From positions 310,001 to 374,000 of the forward strand of contig CAMFKE010000003.1 of the NCBI GenBank assembly GCA_945957395.1: 64,000 nucleotides of DNA, written 5' to 3'. How positions within the stretch are numbered: position 1 is the stretch's first letter; every line of letters begins with the position of its first letter. The stretch is from an uncultured Opitutia bacterium. GTDB lineage: Bacteria > Verrucomicrobiota > Verrucomicrobiia > Opitutales > UBA953. Below are positions 8,830 through 52,981 of this stretch, one piece after another. The notes under the pieces are model-generated. The model searched no databases and had not been told where the DNA came from. It saw only the letters and a list, made by a program, of their open reading frames with translations. A program made the translations under genes and the position numbers.

Positions 8830-9906
8830 ATGTCTCGTCTTCTCATTCTCCAGGATCACCTTCGCCACGGGGGCACCGAGAGCCACGCCGTATGGCTCGC
8901 CGCCGCGCTGCGGGGCGCCGGCGTGGACGCCGGCATCCTCACCTTCCGCCCGAGAGGGCCGCTCGCGGCGAGGGCGAAGGCGGCGGGAGTGCCGCTGGAT
9001 TCCCTGCAAAAGCGCGACACGCGCCTGGACTGGTACGCCCCCGGGCTCGCCCGCGCGGTCAGGGAGCGCGAGCCCGACACCGTGCTGCTCATGGGCAGGA
9101 TGGCCAATGCGCGCGCCGGCACCCTGCGCAAGGCGCTGCCCGAACTGCGCATCGTCGGCTCCGTGCGCACCGGGCGTCGGCTGCCGTGGATCGTTCGCCG
9201 CTCGCTCCTCGCGTGTGATGCGCTGGTGTGCAACGCGCGCGTCATCGCCGACTCTCTCGCCGCCTTCGGTGTCGCCGCCGAGAAGGTCACGGTCATTCCC
9301 AACCCGCCGGTGTCCGCGCCGCTGGCGCCGGACGAGGCGGTGCGCAATCGCGTGCGCGAGGGGCTGCGCGCGTCGCAGTCGGACCGTGTGATGCTGTGCG
9401 TGGCCGGTTTTCGGGAGGGCAAGGGGCAGGCGTCGCTCATTCGCACGATCGCCCGCGCTCCGGAGTTTTCCCGGCTTGTGCTGTGGCTGGCGGGCGACGG
9501 GCCGGAGCGGCGCGCCTGCGAACGCCTTGTGGCGGAGCTGCGCATCGCCCACCGGGTGCGCTTTCTCGGGCACACCGACGACCCTCGCGAACTTTACCTG
9601 GCCGCCGATTTCGCCGTCATGGCCTCGGAGGCGGAGGCGCTGCCGAACTTCCTGGTGGAGGCGCAGTTGCACGGGTTGCCGGTGGTGGCGATGGACGCCG
9701 GTGGCGTGAAGGAGACATTTCTGGACGGGGAATCGGGCGTGTTGGTGCCGGCCGGGGATGAGGCGGCGCTGGCGGCCGCGTGGCTGACGCTGGCCGACGA
9801 CGCGCCGCGTCTGGCCGCCTATGCGGCGAAGGCTCGCGCGTATGCGCCGGGCGTGTTTTCGGAGAGTTCGGCCATCGCGGCCTATCGGCGGGTGCTGAAA
9901 CTGTGA
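8830..9906 (+). CDS. Glycosyltransferase family 4 protein
   Basis: 358 aa from the ATG at 8830. An in-frame codon at 8740 lies in the preceding terminator, so it is rejected. The N-terminus is of Rossmann type (LLILQDHLRHGGTESHAVWLA), with the GGTE loop typical of GT-B group-1 enzymes. The C-terminal half has AGDGPERRACERL, RVRFLGHTDDP, and the nucleotide-sugar site SEAEALPNFLVEAQLHGLPV with the conserved E-x7-E pattern. It transfers a sugar from an NDP-sugar to an unknown acceptor, probably in envelope polysaccharide or lipid glycosylation. No other glycan-assembly genes are adjacent. Confidence 0.85.
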   Translation: MSRLLILQDHLRHGGTESHAVWLAAALRGAGVDAGILTFRPRGPLAARAKAAGVPLDSLQKRDTRLDWYAPGLARAVREREPDTVLLMGRMANARAGTLRKALPELRIVGSVRTGRRLPWIVRRSLLACDALVCNARVIADSLAAFGVAAEKVTVIPNPPVSAPLAPDEAVRNRVREGLRASQSDRVMLCVAGFREGKGQASLIRTIARAPEFSRLVLWLAGDGPERRACERLVAELRIAHRVRFLGHTDDPRELYLAADFAVMASEAEALPNFLVEAQLHGLPVVAMDAGGVKETFLDGESGVLVPAGDEAALAAAWLTLADDAPRLAAYAAKARAYAPGVFSESSAIAAYRRVLKL

Positions 9907-10012
9907 GGCCGGTTTGTTTTTTCGGCCCCTGCCCGACATCTTGCTAAGGTTGATACTAATGACTGCTGTCGCTCAGCCGTTAGACAGCTGAACCCAACCC
10001 ATTTACTTCAAG

Positions 10013-11428
10013 ATGAGCCAGTTACCCCCACCGCCTCCCGGCGCAGACGACTCCATCCCGCCTCCTCCCTCCGACGAGGTGGCCGCTCCTTCCGCCCCCG
10101 AAGCGCCTGCTCAGGCGCCCGCTCCTGTCGACATCCCGCCCCCGGCGCCGACGGGCGAGCAGTACGAGGCCGACCTGCTGAAGCGTAAGAAGACCTTCTC
10201 CTGGAAGACTTTCGGCGGCGACGGCTTCCTGGTGTCGGTGGCCGTGCATGTGCTGCTGCTCATCCTGGGCCTCTTCTGGATCATCTCCAAGTATGTGCCG
10301 GAAGAGAAGAAGCCGGACCCCGAAGTGTTCGCCACCGGCGCCGGCGGCGGCCAGAAGGGCGAGAAGGCCAAGTCTTTCGAGCACAAGCTCAAGTCGCGCC
10401 AGGTGAACCTGGTGAAGTCGCCCTCGCGCATCGTGTCCAAGAGCGCGAACGCCTCGGTCACGCTGCCGTCCACGCCGGCCACGAACACCGCCTCCTTCGC
10501 CTCCGGCCTGTCCGCCGGCGGCATGTCGAAGGGCTCCGGCGGGGGCTCCGGCGGCGGCGAGGGCACGGGCATCGGCATCGGCAAGGGCGGCGGTCGCAAC
10601 TTTGTCTCGCTGTTCGGCGCCAAGGGTTTGGGCTCCACCGGATTGCCCGGCACCTTCTACGACCTGAAGCAGTTCGCGGACGGCAAGCCCACGCCCATGG
10701 CGAGCGGCGAGGGCGCGTATTTCGAGTTTCTGCGCACCTTTGTTAAGAGCTGGGATACGCGGATGCTCTCCAGGTACTTCAAGTCCGAGCAGTCGTTGAA
10801 TGCGGCGCATATCTTCATTCGCATGATTTCCAGCAGTGAAGCGCCCGCGGCCTTCGAGGTCGCCGATCGCGTGAAGCCGACCAACTGGCTGGTCGTGTAC
10901 GAGGGCAAGGTGATCGCGCCCTTCACCGGCACCCTGCGCCTGTGGGGGATTGGCGACCAGTTCCTCTTTGTGAACTGGGACCGCGCCAATGTGCTCGACT
11001 CCGGGTACTTCCTTGCGACCGTTCCGCCGCCCGGCAACGGACGCGGCTACACGAAGCCCGTTCTCGGCACCGAGGATGTGCTCAACCAGGGCGTGCACTT
11101 CACCGACAATCCCGCCAAGGTGCCCTACCGCGCGAGCCGCTGGTTCGAGGTCGTCAAGGGCCGCGAGTACGAGATCAAGATCGCCATCGGCGACACCGGG
11201 GGCGTGACCAGCGCGCACCTGCTTTGGGAAAAGCAGGTGCCCACCACTCGCGGCAAGGGCGACGGCGTGATGCGCGTGTTCCGCATGTCGCCTGACTCCC
11301 TTCCCGAGGCCATTCGCACCCCTGTCACGCACCGTGGCAAGAGCTACAAGAACGGCGGTGCGGACATCGATGTGGAGTTCGACAGCCCGATCTGGTATGT
11401 AAAGCAGACCCGCAGGGTCATCCGCTGA
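10013..11428 (+). CDS. Membrane-anchored protein with PA14-like C-terminal domain (copy 1)
   Basis: 471 aa. The N-terminus is a Pro-rich cytoplasmic segment (~1-55) followed by a KRKKTFSWKTFGGDGFL patch. One transmembrane helix (~72-92, VAVHVLLLILGLFWII) gives a TonB/GltJ-like anchor layout. A Gly/Ser/Lys-rich linker includes GSGGGSGGGEGTGIGIGKGGG. The C-terminal ~270 residues look like a PA14-type beta domain (FYDLKQ..., NWLVVYEGKVIAPFTGTLRLWGIGD..., WFEVVKGREYEIKI). It is probably anchored in the inner membrane with the domain outside. The next gene is a paralogue sharing a 470-bp nearly identical DNA segment. Function unknown. Confidence 0.75.
   Translation: MSQLPPPPPGADDSIPPPPSDEVAAPSAPEAPAQAPAPVDIPPPAPTGEQYEADLLKRKKTFSWKTFGGDGFLVSVAVHVLLLILGLFWIISKYVPEEKKPDPEVFATGAGGGQKGEKAKSFEHKLKSRQVNLVKSPSRIVSKSANASVTLPSTPATNTASFASGLSAGGMSKGSGGGSGGGEGTGIGIGKGGGRNFVSLFGAKGLGSTGLPGTFYDLKQFADGKPTPMASGEGAYFEFLRTFVKSWDTRMLSRYFKSEQSLNAAHIFIRMISSSEAPAAFEVADRVKPTNWLVVYEGKVIAPFTGTLRLWGIGDQFLFVNWDRANVLDSGYFLATVPPPGNGRGYTKPVLGTEDVLNQGVHFTDNPAKVPYRASRWFEVVKGREYEIKIAIGDTGGVTSAHLLWEKQVPTTRGKGDGVMRVFRMSPDSLPEAIRTPVTHRGKSYKNGGADIDVEFDSPIWYVKQTRRVIR
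10149..10618 (+). repeat. 470-bp direct repeat, copy 1
   Basis: It aligns without gaps to 11720-12189. By eye I find two mismatches (10198 C/T and 10603 T/C). It encodes the anchor, transmembrane helix and Gly-rich linker of both tandem proteins. Similarity drops sharply on both sides. Confidence 0.95.
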
Positions 11429-11445
11429 GAGCGTCGAACCAAGAG

Positions 11446-11479
11446 GCCCCTCCACCCGGCAAGGTGGAGGGGCTTTTTT
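11446..11479 (+). terminator. Intrinsic terminator between the tandem paralogues
   Basis: An 11-bp perfect stem (GCCCCTCCACC/GGTGGAGGGGC) with a 6-nt loop, then TTTTTT. The two paralogues are therefore probably transcribed separately. Confidence 0.9.
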
Positions 11480-11601
11480 GCGGGGTAGCGCGGAGCGGGG
11501 GGGCGCATCGGCCTGTTCCGGCCCTGTTGTTTTTTTTTGCCTGAAGCGCCTAAGAGAGGCTTCCGTTCACGCGTTTAACGGCTAACTCCCTCCCACCCCA
11601 A

Positions 11602-12969
11602 ATGAGCCAGCTACCCCCACCCCCTCCCGGCGCCGACAATCCGATACCGCCTCCGCCCTCGGAAACCTCGATTCCTCCCCCCGCACCCGAGTCGCACATC
11701 GACATCCCGCCGCCGGTTGCGACGGGCGAGCAGTACGAGGCCGACCTGCTGAAGCGTAAGAAGACCTTTTCCTGGAAGACTTTCGGCGGCGACGGCTTCC
11801 TGGTGTCGGTGGCCGTGCATGTGCTGCTGCTCATCCTGGGCCTCTTCTGGATCATCTCCAAGTATGTGCCGGAAGAGAAGAAGCCGGACCCCGAAGTGTT
11901 CGCCACCGGCGCCGGCGGCGGCCAGAAGGGCGAGAAGGCCAAGTCTTTCGAGCACAAGCTCAAGTCGCGCCAGGTGAACCTGGTGAAGTCGCCCTCGCGC
12001 ATCGTGTCCAAGAGCGCGAACGCCTCGGTCACGCTGCCGTCCACGCCGGCCACGAACACCGCCTCCTTCGCCTCCGGCCTGTCCGCCGGCGGCATGTCGA
12101 AGGGCTCCGGCGGGGGCTCCGGCGGCGGCGAGGGCACGGGCATCGGCATCGGCAAGGGCGGCGGTCGCAACTTCGTCTCGCTGTTCGGCTCGCGCGGCAA
12201 AAACGCGTCCGGGCTGCCCGGCATCTTCTACGACTGCAAGCAGACCAAGAGCGGCGCCCCGTCCAAATACGCGCCGGAAAACGCCAATGACGAGTACCTC
12301 GACCAGGTGCTGCGCCCGTTCCTGAAAAACTGGGACACCACCAAGCTCGACAACAACTTCTTCAAGTCCCCCGAAAGCCTGACGGCCTCGCAGTTGTTCA
12401 TTCCCATCCAGTCCTCCGGCGCGGCGCCCAAGGCCTACCAGGTCGAGGACAAGTGCAAACCCAACCGCTGGGTCTGCCACTACAACGGCGTCGTCACCGC
12501 GCCCAAGACCGGTCGCTTCCGCTTCTGGGTGTACGCCGACGATGTGTGCGTGGTGCGATGGGAGCGACGGATCGTCGCGGACAACGGCTACGCCACGCTG
12601 GGGCTTCCCGGCATGAACAGCACGGGTTTGCACAAGAGCCCGTTCAAGGGCGTCGACGGCGAGCTGCGCAAGCGCGGCAAGTCGGATGTGGTGATCTTCC
12701 GCCCCGGCGTCTGGTTCGATGTGGCCAAGGGCCGCGATTACCCCGTTGAAATCCTCCTGGGCGATGTCGGCGGCCTTTTCGGCAGCTATGTGCTGATGGA
12801 GGAGTTTGATCCGAAGACCAAGGACGAGGGTGACGGGAAAATCTTCCTGTTCCGCATGAGCCCCGACGAGGTTGGCGGCAACCCGCAGGACGACACCGGG
12901 CTGAATGTGGACTTCTCCGGCAAGGGCCTGATCTGGTTCTCCAAGAACCAGCGCCGCGTCGTTCGCTAA
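11602..12969 (+). CDS. Membrane-anchored protein with PA14-like C-terminal domain (copy 2)
   Basis: 455 aa. Same architecture as the preceding gene: Pro-rich start, KRKKTFSWKTFGG patch, one transmembrane helix (~60-80), Gly-rich linker and C-terminal beta domain. Residues ~40-196 match the first copy, while the C-terminal ~255 residues are clearly diverged (short shared blocks such as FYD-K, RFWVYADDVCVVRWERR versus LRLWGIGDQFLFVNWDR, and a common end FRMSPD...R-R-V-[IV]-R). The shared C-terminal fold plus identical N-terminal DNA points to an old duplication with recent homogenisation of the anchor. Function unknown; no exbB, exbD or tonB partner lies nearby. Confidence 0.75.
   Translation: MSQLPPPPPGADNPIPPPPSETSIPPPAPESHIDIPPPVATGEQYEADLLKRKKTFSWKTFGGDGFLVSVAVHVLLLILGLFWIISKYVPEEKKPDPEVFATGAGGGQKGEKAKSFEHKLKSRQVNLVKSPSRIVSKSANASVTLPSTPATNTASFASGLSAGGMSKGSGGGSGGGEGTGIGIGKGGGRNFVSLFGSRGKNASGLPGIFYDCKQTKSGAPSKYAPENANDEYLDQVLRPFLKNWDTTKLDNNFFKSPESLTASQLFIPIQSSGAAPKAYQVEDKCKPNRWVCHYNGVVTAPKTGRFRFWVYADDVCVVRWERRIVADNGYATLGLPGMNSTGLHKSPFKGVDGELRKRGKSDVVIFRPGVWFDVAKGRDYPVEILLGDVGGLFGSYVLMEEFDPKTKDEGDGKIFLFRMSPDEVGGNPQDDTGLNVDFSGKGLIWFSKNQRRVVR
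11720..12189 (+). repeat. 470-bp direct repeat, copy 2
   Basis: Partner of 10149-10618, at a constant offset of 1571 bp with no indels. Confidence 0.95.
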
Positions 12970-12988
12970 GCGCGCCTTTCTCCGAACG

Positions 12989-13024
12989 AGCCCGTCTCGC
13001 CCCTGCGGCGCGACGGGCTTTTTC
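12989..13024 (+). terminator. Intrinsic terminator after copy 2
   Basis: Stem AGCCCGTC/GACGGGCT with a 15-nt loop region, then a run of T. Confidence 0.8.
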
Positions 13025-13086
13025 TTTGTCGGGTCGGGTGCGCTTGCGCCGCCGCCGGCGCGCGGCGGGAGTTTTCGGCAAAACGA

Positions 13087-13120
13087 AAAGCCTCCGACCG
13101 GCGGACCGGGCGGAGGCTTT
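13087..13120. terminator. Terminator at the end of carB
   Basis: Stem AAAGCCTCCG/CGGAGGCTTT, 10 bp, with the minus-strand continuation TCGTTT. It lies 19 bp beyond the carB stop and could also stop plus-strand read-through. Confidence 0.8.
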
Positions 13121-13139
13121 GTTCAGGCTTTCGGGGCGA

Positions 13140-46776: not shown

Positions 46777-47532
46777 TCAGTGCGCCGCGAGGGCGGCGCC
46801 GAGGATGCCGGCGTCGTTGCCCAGGTGGGCGATGCGCACGGGGCAGGGCGCCTTGAGCAGGTGCATGAAGTGGTCGGCCTTGTGGGCGCCGCCGCCGCCG
46901 AGCAGGATCTGGTCGGGCCAGAGGGTGTTGTGCACCTCGGTGAGGTAGTCGCTGAACCAGGCCGCCCACTGTTCCCAGGTGAGGTTGAGCTTCTGGCGGT
47001 TGATTTCCGACAGCAGGCACTCCGCGTCGATCTCCTCGCCCGGGGCGCCGAGCGGGTTTTTGATGCGGTAGCGGGCGGGCTCGAAGTTGGGCACGAGTTT
47101 GCCGGCGTACACGAGGGCGCCGCCGATGCCGGTGCCGAGCGTGAGCACGACGGTCAGCCCGGGGGAAACTTCGCCCTCCGAGTAGGCGGCCGTGGCCAGG
47201 CCGGCGGCGTCGGCGTCGTTGACCAGGGTGACTTTGGTCAGGCCGCAGCGTTGGCGAAGCTCTTCGGCGAGGCGCCAGCCGACGAGGGAGGCGCCGAGGT
47301 TGGCCGCCGTGGCGACGACGCCGTTGCGGATGACTCCGGGGAAGCCGAGGCCGACCGGTCCGGTGTGGCCGGATTGGCGCACGAGGCCGACCAGCGCCTC
47401 CATAAGGTTCTCGCGCGTGCAGGGCGACGGCGTGGCGATCTTGGTGGTCGCGCCGACGATTTCGCCGGTGGCGATGTTAACGAGGGCGGCCTTGATGGAG
47501 GTGCCGCCGATGTCGATGCCGAGAATGTTCAT
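46777..47532 (-). CDS. Polyphosphate-glucokinase-like ROK kinase (copy 1)
   Basis: 251 aa from the ATG at 47532. Begins NILGIDIGGTSIKAALV (phosphate-1 motif of actin-fold sugar kinases); VTLVNDADAAGLA and VLTLGTGIGGALVYAGKLVPN are the catalytic-Asp and phosphate-2 regions. LLGGGGAHKADHF and NDAGILGAALA end it. The pattern matches polyP/ATP glucokinases of actinobacteria (PPGK), but the usual E-[LF]-G-H after PN is changed to E-P-A-R. A paralogue lies about 5.5 kb upstream, and DegT lies just upstream on the same strand. Probable substrate is glucose; phosphoryl donor uncertain. Confidence 0.82.
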   Translation of the reverse strand: MNILGIDIGGTSIKAALVNIATGEIVGATTKIATPSPCTRENLMEALVGLVRQSGHTGPVGLGFPGVIRNGVVATAANLGASLVGWRLAEELRQRCGLTKVTLVNDADAAGLATAAYSEGEVSPGLTVVLTLGTGIGGALVYAGKLVPNFEPARYRIKNPLGAPGEEIDAECLLSEINRQKLNLTWEQWAAWFSDYLTEVHNTLWPDQILLGGGGAHKADHFMHLLKAPCPVRIAHLGNDAGILGAALAAH

Positions 47533-52219: not shown

Positions 52220-52981
52220 TCAGAGGTGCTTGGCCGAAAGGGCCGCGCCGATCACGCCGGCGTCGTTGCCCAGTTGCGCGATATGGATGGGGCAGGGGGC
52301 CTTGAGCAGGTGCAGGAAGTGCTCGGCCTTGTGCGCGCCGCCGCCGCCCAGGATGATGAGCTCGGGCTGCAGCAGCATGTGCAGCTCCTCCAGGTACTCG
52401 TTGAAGAGCTCGGCCCAGCGTTCCCAGGAGAGGCCCAGCTTCTCGCGGTTGATGTCGGAGAGCAGCTTCTCGGCGCGGATGCGTTCGCCGGGGGCGCCCA
52501 AGGGGTTGGGGATGTGGATCTGTCCGGGCTCGAGGTTGGGCACCAGGTTGCCCCCGTGCACGAGCGCGCCGCCGATGCCGGTGCCTAGTGTGAGCACGAG
52601 CGTCACGCCGGGCGCGATCTCCGATTTGTCGTAGGCGGCGATGGCCAGGCCCGCCGCGTCGGCGTCGTTCACCAGCGTGATGTGGTGCAGCCCGGTGCGC
52701 GCCTTCAGCTTGTCCACCAGGCGCACGCCGATCAGGTCGGGGTCGAGGTTAGAGGCGGCGCCGATGACGCCGGAGCGCACGATGCCGGGGAAACCGATGC
52801 CCACATGGCCCGAGTGCCCGGTGGCCACGATGATGCTGCTGAGCGCCACGAGCAGCGACTCCTGCGTGCAGGGCTTGGGCGTGGGCGTGCGCATGACATC
52901 GCCAATCAGCATGCCGGTCGAGGTGCGCACGAGGGCGTACTTGATGTTGGTTCCGCCGATATCGATGCCGAGGATGATCAT
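52220..52981 (-). CDS. Polyphosphate-glucokinase-like ROK kinase (copy 2)
   Basis: 253 aa. Paralogue of the kinase at 46777, with the same layout: ILGIDIGGTNIKYALV, ITLVNDADAAGLAIAAY, LTLGTGIGGALVHGGNLVPN, NPLGAPGERI, LIILGGGGAHKAEHFLHLLKAPCP and NDAGVIGAALSA. After PN the sequence is LEPGQ, so the E-x-G-H motif of PPGK is changed here as in copy 1, suggesting a shared lineage-specific variant. A heptamer array lies directly before the start. The two copies are not in tandem, so this is an older duplication. Confidence 0.82.
   Translation of the reverse strand: MIILGIDIGGTNIKYALVRTSTGMLIGDVMRTPTPKPCTQESLLVALSSIIVATGHSGHVGIGFPGIVRSGVIGAASNLDPDLIGVRLVDKLKARTGLHHITLVNDADAAGLAIAAYDKSEIAPGVTLVLTLGTGIGGALVHGGNLVPNLEPGQIHIPNPLGAPGERIRAEKLLSDINREKLGLSWERWAELFNEYLEELHMLLQPELIILGGGGAHKAEHFLHLLKAPCPIHIAQLGNDAGVIGAALSAKHL

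Follow-up and report, generated by a model that had tools for sequence, protein, structure and literature searches.

Two tandem genes in the window, the whole 64,000-nucleotide stretch of DNA analysed here, share a membrane-anchor segment that very probably reflects recurrent segmental gene conversion between old paralogues, with heads that keep ancient identities of their own. Gene A (10013-11428, plus strand) encodes 471 amino acids with a proline-rich N-terminus, an anchor and a PA14-like head, the last recognised by alignment with B and relatives; gene B (11602-12969, plus strand, 455 amino acids) follows the same plan. A sequence-only reading of this DNA had described a 470-bp almost identical segment with two differences, and gapless comparison proved the description exact. 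The copies in A (10149-10618) and B (11720-12189), both on the plus strand, align without gaps at an offset of 1571 and differ at 2 of 470 positions, the substitutions being 10198 C/T and 10603 T/C, both synonymous and at the third codon position. Every residue is the same over the 144 anchor codons counted (dS 0.02, dN 0), and the flanking mismatches begin at 10148 and 10619.

The same reading had noticed a sharp drop of similarity outside the anchor with C-termini that are still related, and had proposed comparing synonymous divergence on either side of the segment edge. This comparison agreed with it: against 0.02 in the anchor, dS is 0.57 in the 52 codons upstream (nucleotide identity 0.79) and 0.87 in the 255 aligned codons of the C-terminal part (nucleotide identity 0.54, amino-acid identity 0.38), the last value being saturated, so that it sets a lower limit on the age and does not date the divergence. 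In these GC-rich genomes, distant pairs often reach synonymous differences of just ~0.3-0.6, which supports saturation outside the anchor. At the C-terminal rate (91.6/177), two or fewer differences in 114 synonymous sites have a binomial probability of 6e-33. Recent duplication of the whole gene is excluded, since the pre-anchor stretch and the head (38% identical) have both diverged. Besides the A/B segment the window contains one self-repeat longer than 60 bp, at 76% identity (46784-47245 versus 52233-52694); its two copies lie in paralogues that we named by eye, from their translation, as ROK-type kinases.

A promoter scan of positions 9880-13130 found none. The only strong hairpin detected in a scan of the same interval lies between A and B at 11446-11473, listed on the minus strand. 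Inspection by eye of 11446-11479 showed a perfect GC-rich hairpin followed by T's on the plus strand, and the hairpin with its T's suggests that A and B are transcribed separately.

The family to which A and B belong was matched in 38 of the 57 genomes searched. It is present in the window's genome (G000) and in all 36 other genomes of the same taxonomic family searched, and 20 genomes of further members of the order gave one weak match (5.3e-5). When named genomes were scanned with a protein of genome G009, five loci came up, all titled Verrucomicrobiota or Opitutae; with B as query the named-genome scan found no relative. Regions were fetched for part of the matches, from 34 of the 36 other genomes (G031 and G035 were left out). 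The common plan is a proline-rich N-terminus, one transmembrane helix with a Ser-x3-His motif, a glycine-rich linker and a PA14-fold or VWA-like head. In relatives the anchor is common to two classes, one with PA14-type heads, often in tandem, and one with VWA-like heads carrying an invariant DxSxS. Alignments A1, A2 and A3 comprised 48, 39 and 30 of the 52 complete PA14-class genes, and A4 comprised 28 of the 35 VWA-class genes. The C-terminal residue is arginine in 56/63 PA14-class and 22/35 VWA-class members versus 64/390 other long ORFs, a background that includes ORFs that are no genes.

To compare the histories of anchor and head, trees were built from 62 PA14-class members of 34 genomes, 20 of which have two or more copies; members whose head is cut by a contig end or whose anchor is incomplete were left out, as were the YfbK-like gene described below and L133 (a named duplicate of G009). 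In the multi-copy genomes 34 of 48 anchors, versus 9 of 48 heads, have their nearest neighbour in their own genome. Likewise, the copies of one genome form a single clade in 11 of the 20 genomes by anchor and in 1 of 20 by head. That sole genome is the window's own, in which the head of A has that of B as its nearest relative in the tree, and vice versa. The set holds no congener of this genome; therefore orthologues of its heads are not recognisable, and orthologous loci are not demonstrable for A and B.

Syntenic loci in relatives display the conflict directly. The locus of the g2 group has the same amidohydrolase flanks in 12 genomes (g2 and its named relatives). For the syntenic tandem types b and c, anchor identity within a genome is 0.99 in G009 and 0.98 in Opitutae bacterium BS10, while the orthologous b and c anchors of these two genomes are 0.87 and 0.86 identical. 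Silent sites follow the same course, with anchor differences (pS) of 0.10 and 0.11 within G009 and BS10 versus 0.30 and 0.30 between orthologues. In the heads of the same genes, orthologues have an identity of 0.91 and 0.90 and paralogues one of 0.50. The anchor tree pairs b with c by genome in G033, BS10, G009, G001, Kiruna3 and UppL5, the arrangement in UppL6 being open, and in the head tree they split into separate b and c groups. Topology tests gave a corresponding result: anchor DNA rejects a b group, a c group and a b pair of G009 with BS10 (three tests, AU p under 1e-38), and head DNA rejects a b-c pair in G009 and does not reject the b group (p 0.246). The gene conversion proposed by the sequence-only reading is upheld by the silent near-identity confined to the anchor and by the conflict of anchor and head trees throughout the family.

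The boundary of the uniform segment is shared. Among 17 pairs profiled, identity falls near FVSxFG, the end of the anchor, in most, including pairs on different contigs; the exceptions are G011, where it falls earlier, and two adjacent genes of G003 that show no sharp edge. Homogenisation does not extend to every relative. In genus g3 the anchors at two loci track orthology, not genome, and its eight genes account for 8 of the 14 anchor exceptions; in G001 the anchor pair is 0.89 identical as protein with saturated synonymous sites. Relatives with diverged anchors, which had been named beforehand as speaking against conversion, are therefore found in g3 and G001, and other relatives show conversion. 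These two cases imply that conversion is recurrent, not constant, and that purifying selection acts too; as far as the sequences tell, conversion is episodic and mostly within the PA14 class, with selection on the protein also keeping the anchors alike. Anchor conversion between the PA14 and VWA classes is not supported: silent values within a genome are 0.39-0.90, the saturated range. At the protein level, PA14-class and VWA-class anchors of G009 and G004 are most alike inside one genome, and some of the anchors of the two classes cluster by genus in the anchor tree.

The window pair by itself would equally fit a head replacement, in which a recent duplicate received another head by recombination, so that the head and not the anchor moved. 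Modules do move, as the YfbK-like gene has a linker piece that its G007 relative lacks as a whole. Replacement of the head is nevertheless improbable, because the part preceding the anchor has diverged too (nucleotide identity 0.79) and because head types in relatives hold syntenic positions in a fixed order, with anchors that follow the genome. No recent head swapping was seen in the family. Still less probable is an assembly artefact, an anchor duplicated in the contig or a collapse wrongly resolved. The anchors are hard to assemble, since 10 of the 16 truncated members of relatives break inside the anchor, a count that is biased in that members were picked by their anchor; but two fixed differences part the copies in the window, both lie between unique flanks inside a 389-kb contig, and independent assemblies with different sequences show the same pattern. 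Purifying selection alone, without conversion, is the least probable explanation, for although the anchor protein is strongly conserved despite silent saturation in G001, the window pair differs at 2 of about 114 synonymous sites and selection on protein does not draw the paralogues of a genome nearer to each other at silent sites than orthologues are. We thus favour conversion of the anchor.

Three more of the 16 truncated members break within 22 residues after the anchor, and the contig ends concerned belong to G004, G012, G016, G020, G023, G024, G026 and G032. Given such contig breaks, binned genomes may undercount these anchor genes.

The heads of A (10625-11425) and B (12196-12966), both on the plus strand, gave no Pfam match at E<=1, in A or in B as a whole, and NCBIfam gave none for A, B, one VWA-class protein and one PA14-class protein of G009. 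The Pfam PA14 profile (PF07691) matches 26 of 48 family heads at E<=0.1 (best 2e-7), and the modelled head of B has the PA14 fold, matching 6m8m with Z 12.8 and rmsd 3.4 over 164 aligned residues and 6qdi with Z 11.6; the best Foldseek row for this head has E 2.6e-7. The C-termini had already been called PA14-like from the letters, and the profile and fold matches substantiate that name. In PA14-fold lectins an Asp-Asp pair binds calcium. This pair is found in 44 of 48 family heads, including that of B (12538-12543); A is one of the four exceptions, the second Asp being Gln (codon 10958-10960). The heads are putative binders of periplasmic or wall glycans, a role to which we give nearly an even chance. 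In VWA-class heads D18, S20 and S22 of the DxSxS motif are invariant in 28 aligned rows. The model of such a head has a pLDDT of 87.8 and its listed structural matches are mostly VWA-fold by name, with Z only up to 7.4; Pfam VWA gave one weak match in 28 of these heads. A VWA-class pair in G001 and in G013 adjoins T2SSE and T2SSF genes of the kind used to assemble type IV pili or type II secretion systems; the pairs, L044:6040-8549 and L050:5431-8168, adjoin two T2SSE genes and T2SSF, and an ApbE-family gene is near the L044 pair.

A search of the window's genome for further copies of the segment with other C-termini, suggested by the sequence-only reading, found the full segment in A and B only and one partial copy in a third gene. 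This gene, on contig C10 (L012:3276-5765, minus strand), encodes a YfbK-type VWA protein with an otherwise unrelated body and carries 167 nt of the segment at 77% identity along with shorter pieces; its N-terminus looks anti-sigma-like by eye. The 167-nt piece is part of the anchor's linker. A G007 relative of the protein, 45% identical overall, lacks the linker except for a short FATGSGGG stretch, from which it follows that the piece was probably gained in the line of the window's genome. Beyond the YfbK-like gene no VWA-class member was found in this genome.

The anchor contains a transmembrane helix that spans residues 70-94 in A (10220-10294, plus strand; by alignment with B) and 64-88 in B (11791-11865, plus strand; AlphaFold model, block pLDDT up to 95). 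The model of B, built with 39 family members, shows this helix followed by a glycine-rich, disordered linker that runs until about residue 190, and after it a beta-rich head. The linker cores, recognised in the sequence and by invariant glycines in the family alignment, are at 10529-10594 in A and 12100-12165 in B, both on the plus strand. Within the helix both proteins have the motif SVAVH, at S75-H79 in A (10235-10249, plus strand) and S69-H73 in B (11806-11820, plus strand). Of the 95 family members whose helix is complete, 92 have such a Ser-x3-His, both window genes among them; in other ORFs, 3 of 175 first hydrophobic stretches have it. It corresponds to the Ser-His part of the SHLS motif, which is where TonB and TolA touch ExbB and TolQ according to PMC12215075. 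The full Ser-x3-His-x6-Leu-x3-Ser spacing is absent: in the window helix SVAVHVLLLILGLFWIIS the places of Leu and Ser are taken by Gly and Ile. The three members lacking Ser-x3-His are all three complete PA14-class copies of genome G003, and the putative motor link is hence not universal. The G003 copies are at L065:2312-5038 and L066:5907-7214; their joint loss of the motif is what would be expected if an altered anchor spreads by conversion.

Lysines and one arginine precede the helix of A and B. This basic stretch and the TonB/TolA-type motif indicate that the N-terminus is probably cytoplasmic and the head periplasmic. The window's genome contains six MotA/ExbB and seven ExbD matches, and no ExbB or ExbD was found among the part of the neighbouring ORFs that was scanned with Pfam. 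We tentatively take an ExbB/ExbD-type motor as the best candidate partner of the anchor, at somewhat less than even confidence, in view of Ser-x3-His and of the ExbB/ExbD families in this genome. A PDB profile search returned just glycine-rich chance matches, and homology between the anchor and a TonB of solved structure was rejected on that ground.

The idea of a swappable surface-sensor system, put forward in the sequence-only reading, is retained in one respect: the same anchor does bear other heads, VWA-like in relatives and a YfbK/VWA body, with a partial piece, in the window's genome. Its three qualifiers are not retained. At syntenic loci the heads have stable orthologues, and what moves is the anchor; the predicted topology places the head in the periplasm and not at the surface; and no output domain, as a sensor might have, was found.

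According to our proposed mechanism, A and B would be old paralogues within a family of inner-membrane proteins of this Opitutae lineage, in which a cytoplasmic proline-rich tail, a TonB/TolA-type helix and a long glycine-rich linker would offer a PA14-fold head to the periplasm. Ectopic gene conversion of the RecA type, between tandem or dispersed paralogues, would repeatedly replace one copy's anchor by the anchor of a different copy, the likely agent being non-reciprocal homologous recombination over a long similar stretch, ending where similarity ends. The tract would stop there because the heads are too unlike to recombine or because a converted head is lost to selection; heads too different for a tract to enter would in turn reinforce the boundary. 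Anchors would become alike within each genome and heads would retain their own ancient identities. Uniform anchors would be valuable in that all copies probably use one membrane partner, and we infer that this common partner, possibly of the ExbB/ExbD type, holds them alike; if motor coupling is true, a single shared partner means that anchors must match.

In environmental bacteria these genes offer a clean, replicated example of conversion holding a membrane-anchor module constant as the heads attached to it diverge; among the relatives, some have converted recently, others long ago and others not at all. More speculatively, and in our opinion rather doubtfully, the family could represent undescribed TonB/TolA-like adaptors, in which one motor-coupled anchor, made uniform in each genome by conversion, serves many periplasmic heads that compete for ExbB/ExbD-type motors. 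In the same doubtful joint reading the heads would be the PA14 lectin-like and the VWA-like ones, the VWA pair being a neighbour of genes for type IV pilus or type II secretion assembly. Should the anchor couple to ExbB/ExbD, the TonB/TolA principle would no longer be confined to one or two C-terminal domains and would take in a whole set of interchangeable heads.

A literature search, limited in reach and no proof of novelty, found no description of this protein family, and parts of it resemble known systems. Its heads share their fold with PA14 lectins, namely the PA14 domain of the Marinomonas primoryensis adhesin, the yeast Epa/Flo adhesins and an anti-sigma factor domain protein of Clostridium clariflavum. 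B resembles these lectins in its Asp-Asp pair, of which A lacks the second Asp; unlike them, A and B are anchored by a TonB/TolA-type helix and have no anti-sigma or adhesin-repeat part. With TonB and TolA the family shares a single N-terminal helix with Ser-x3-His, basic residues ahead of it, a long flexible periplasmic linker and a separate C-terminal domain, and ExbB and ExbD homologues exist in the window's genome. It differs in that Leu and Ser of the full motif, as given in PMC12215075, are off the expected spacing, in that the head is PA14 or VWA-like, A and B having no match to the Pfam TonB or TolA C-terminal domains, and in the lack of a TonB sequence match in the PDB profile search.

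As a process, segmental concerted evolution is of a known kind. In babA and babB of Helicobacter pylori one segment is strongly alike within a strain and others are alike between strains, according to the review PMC3960876. Similarly, in the relatives studied here the anchor clusters by genome and the head by orthologue, the A/B pair itself showing the silent-site contrast only. In contrast to babA and babB, where the segment is a 3' one of outer-membrane adhesins, here it is a 5' segment encoding a cytoplasmic-membrane anchor and linker, and conversion in this family occurs at tandem as well as dispersed loci, across several genera.
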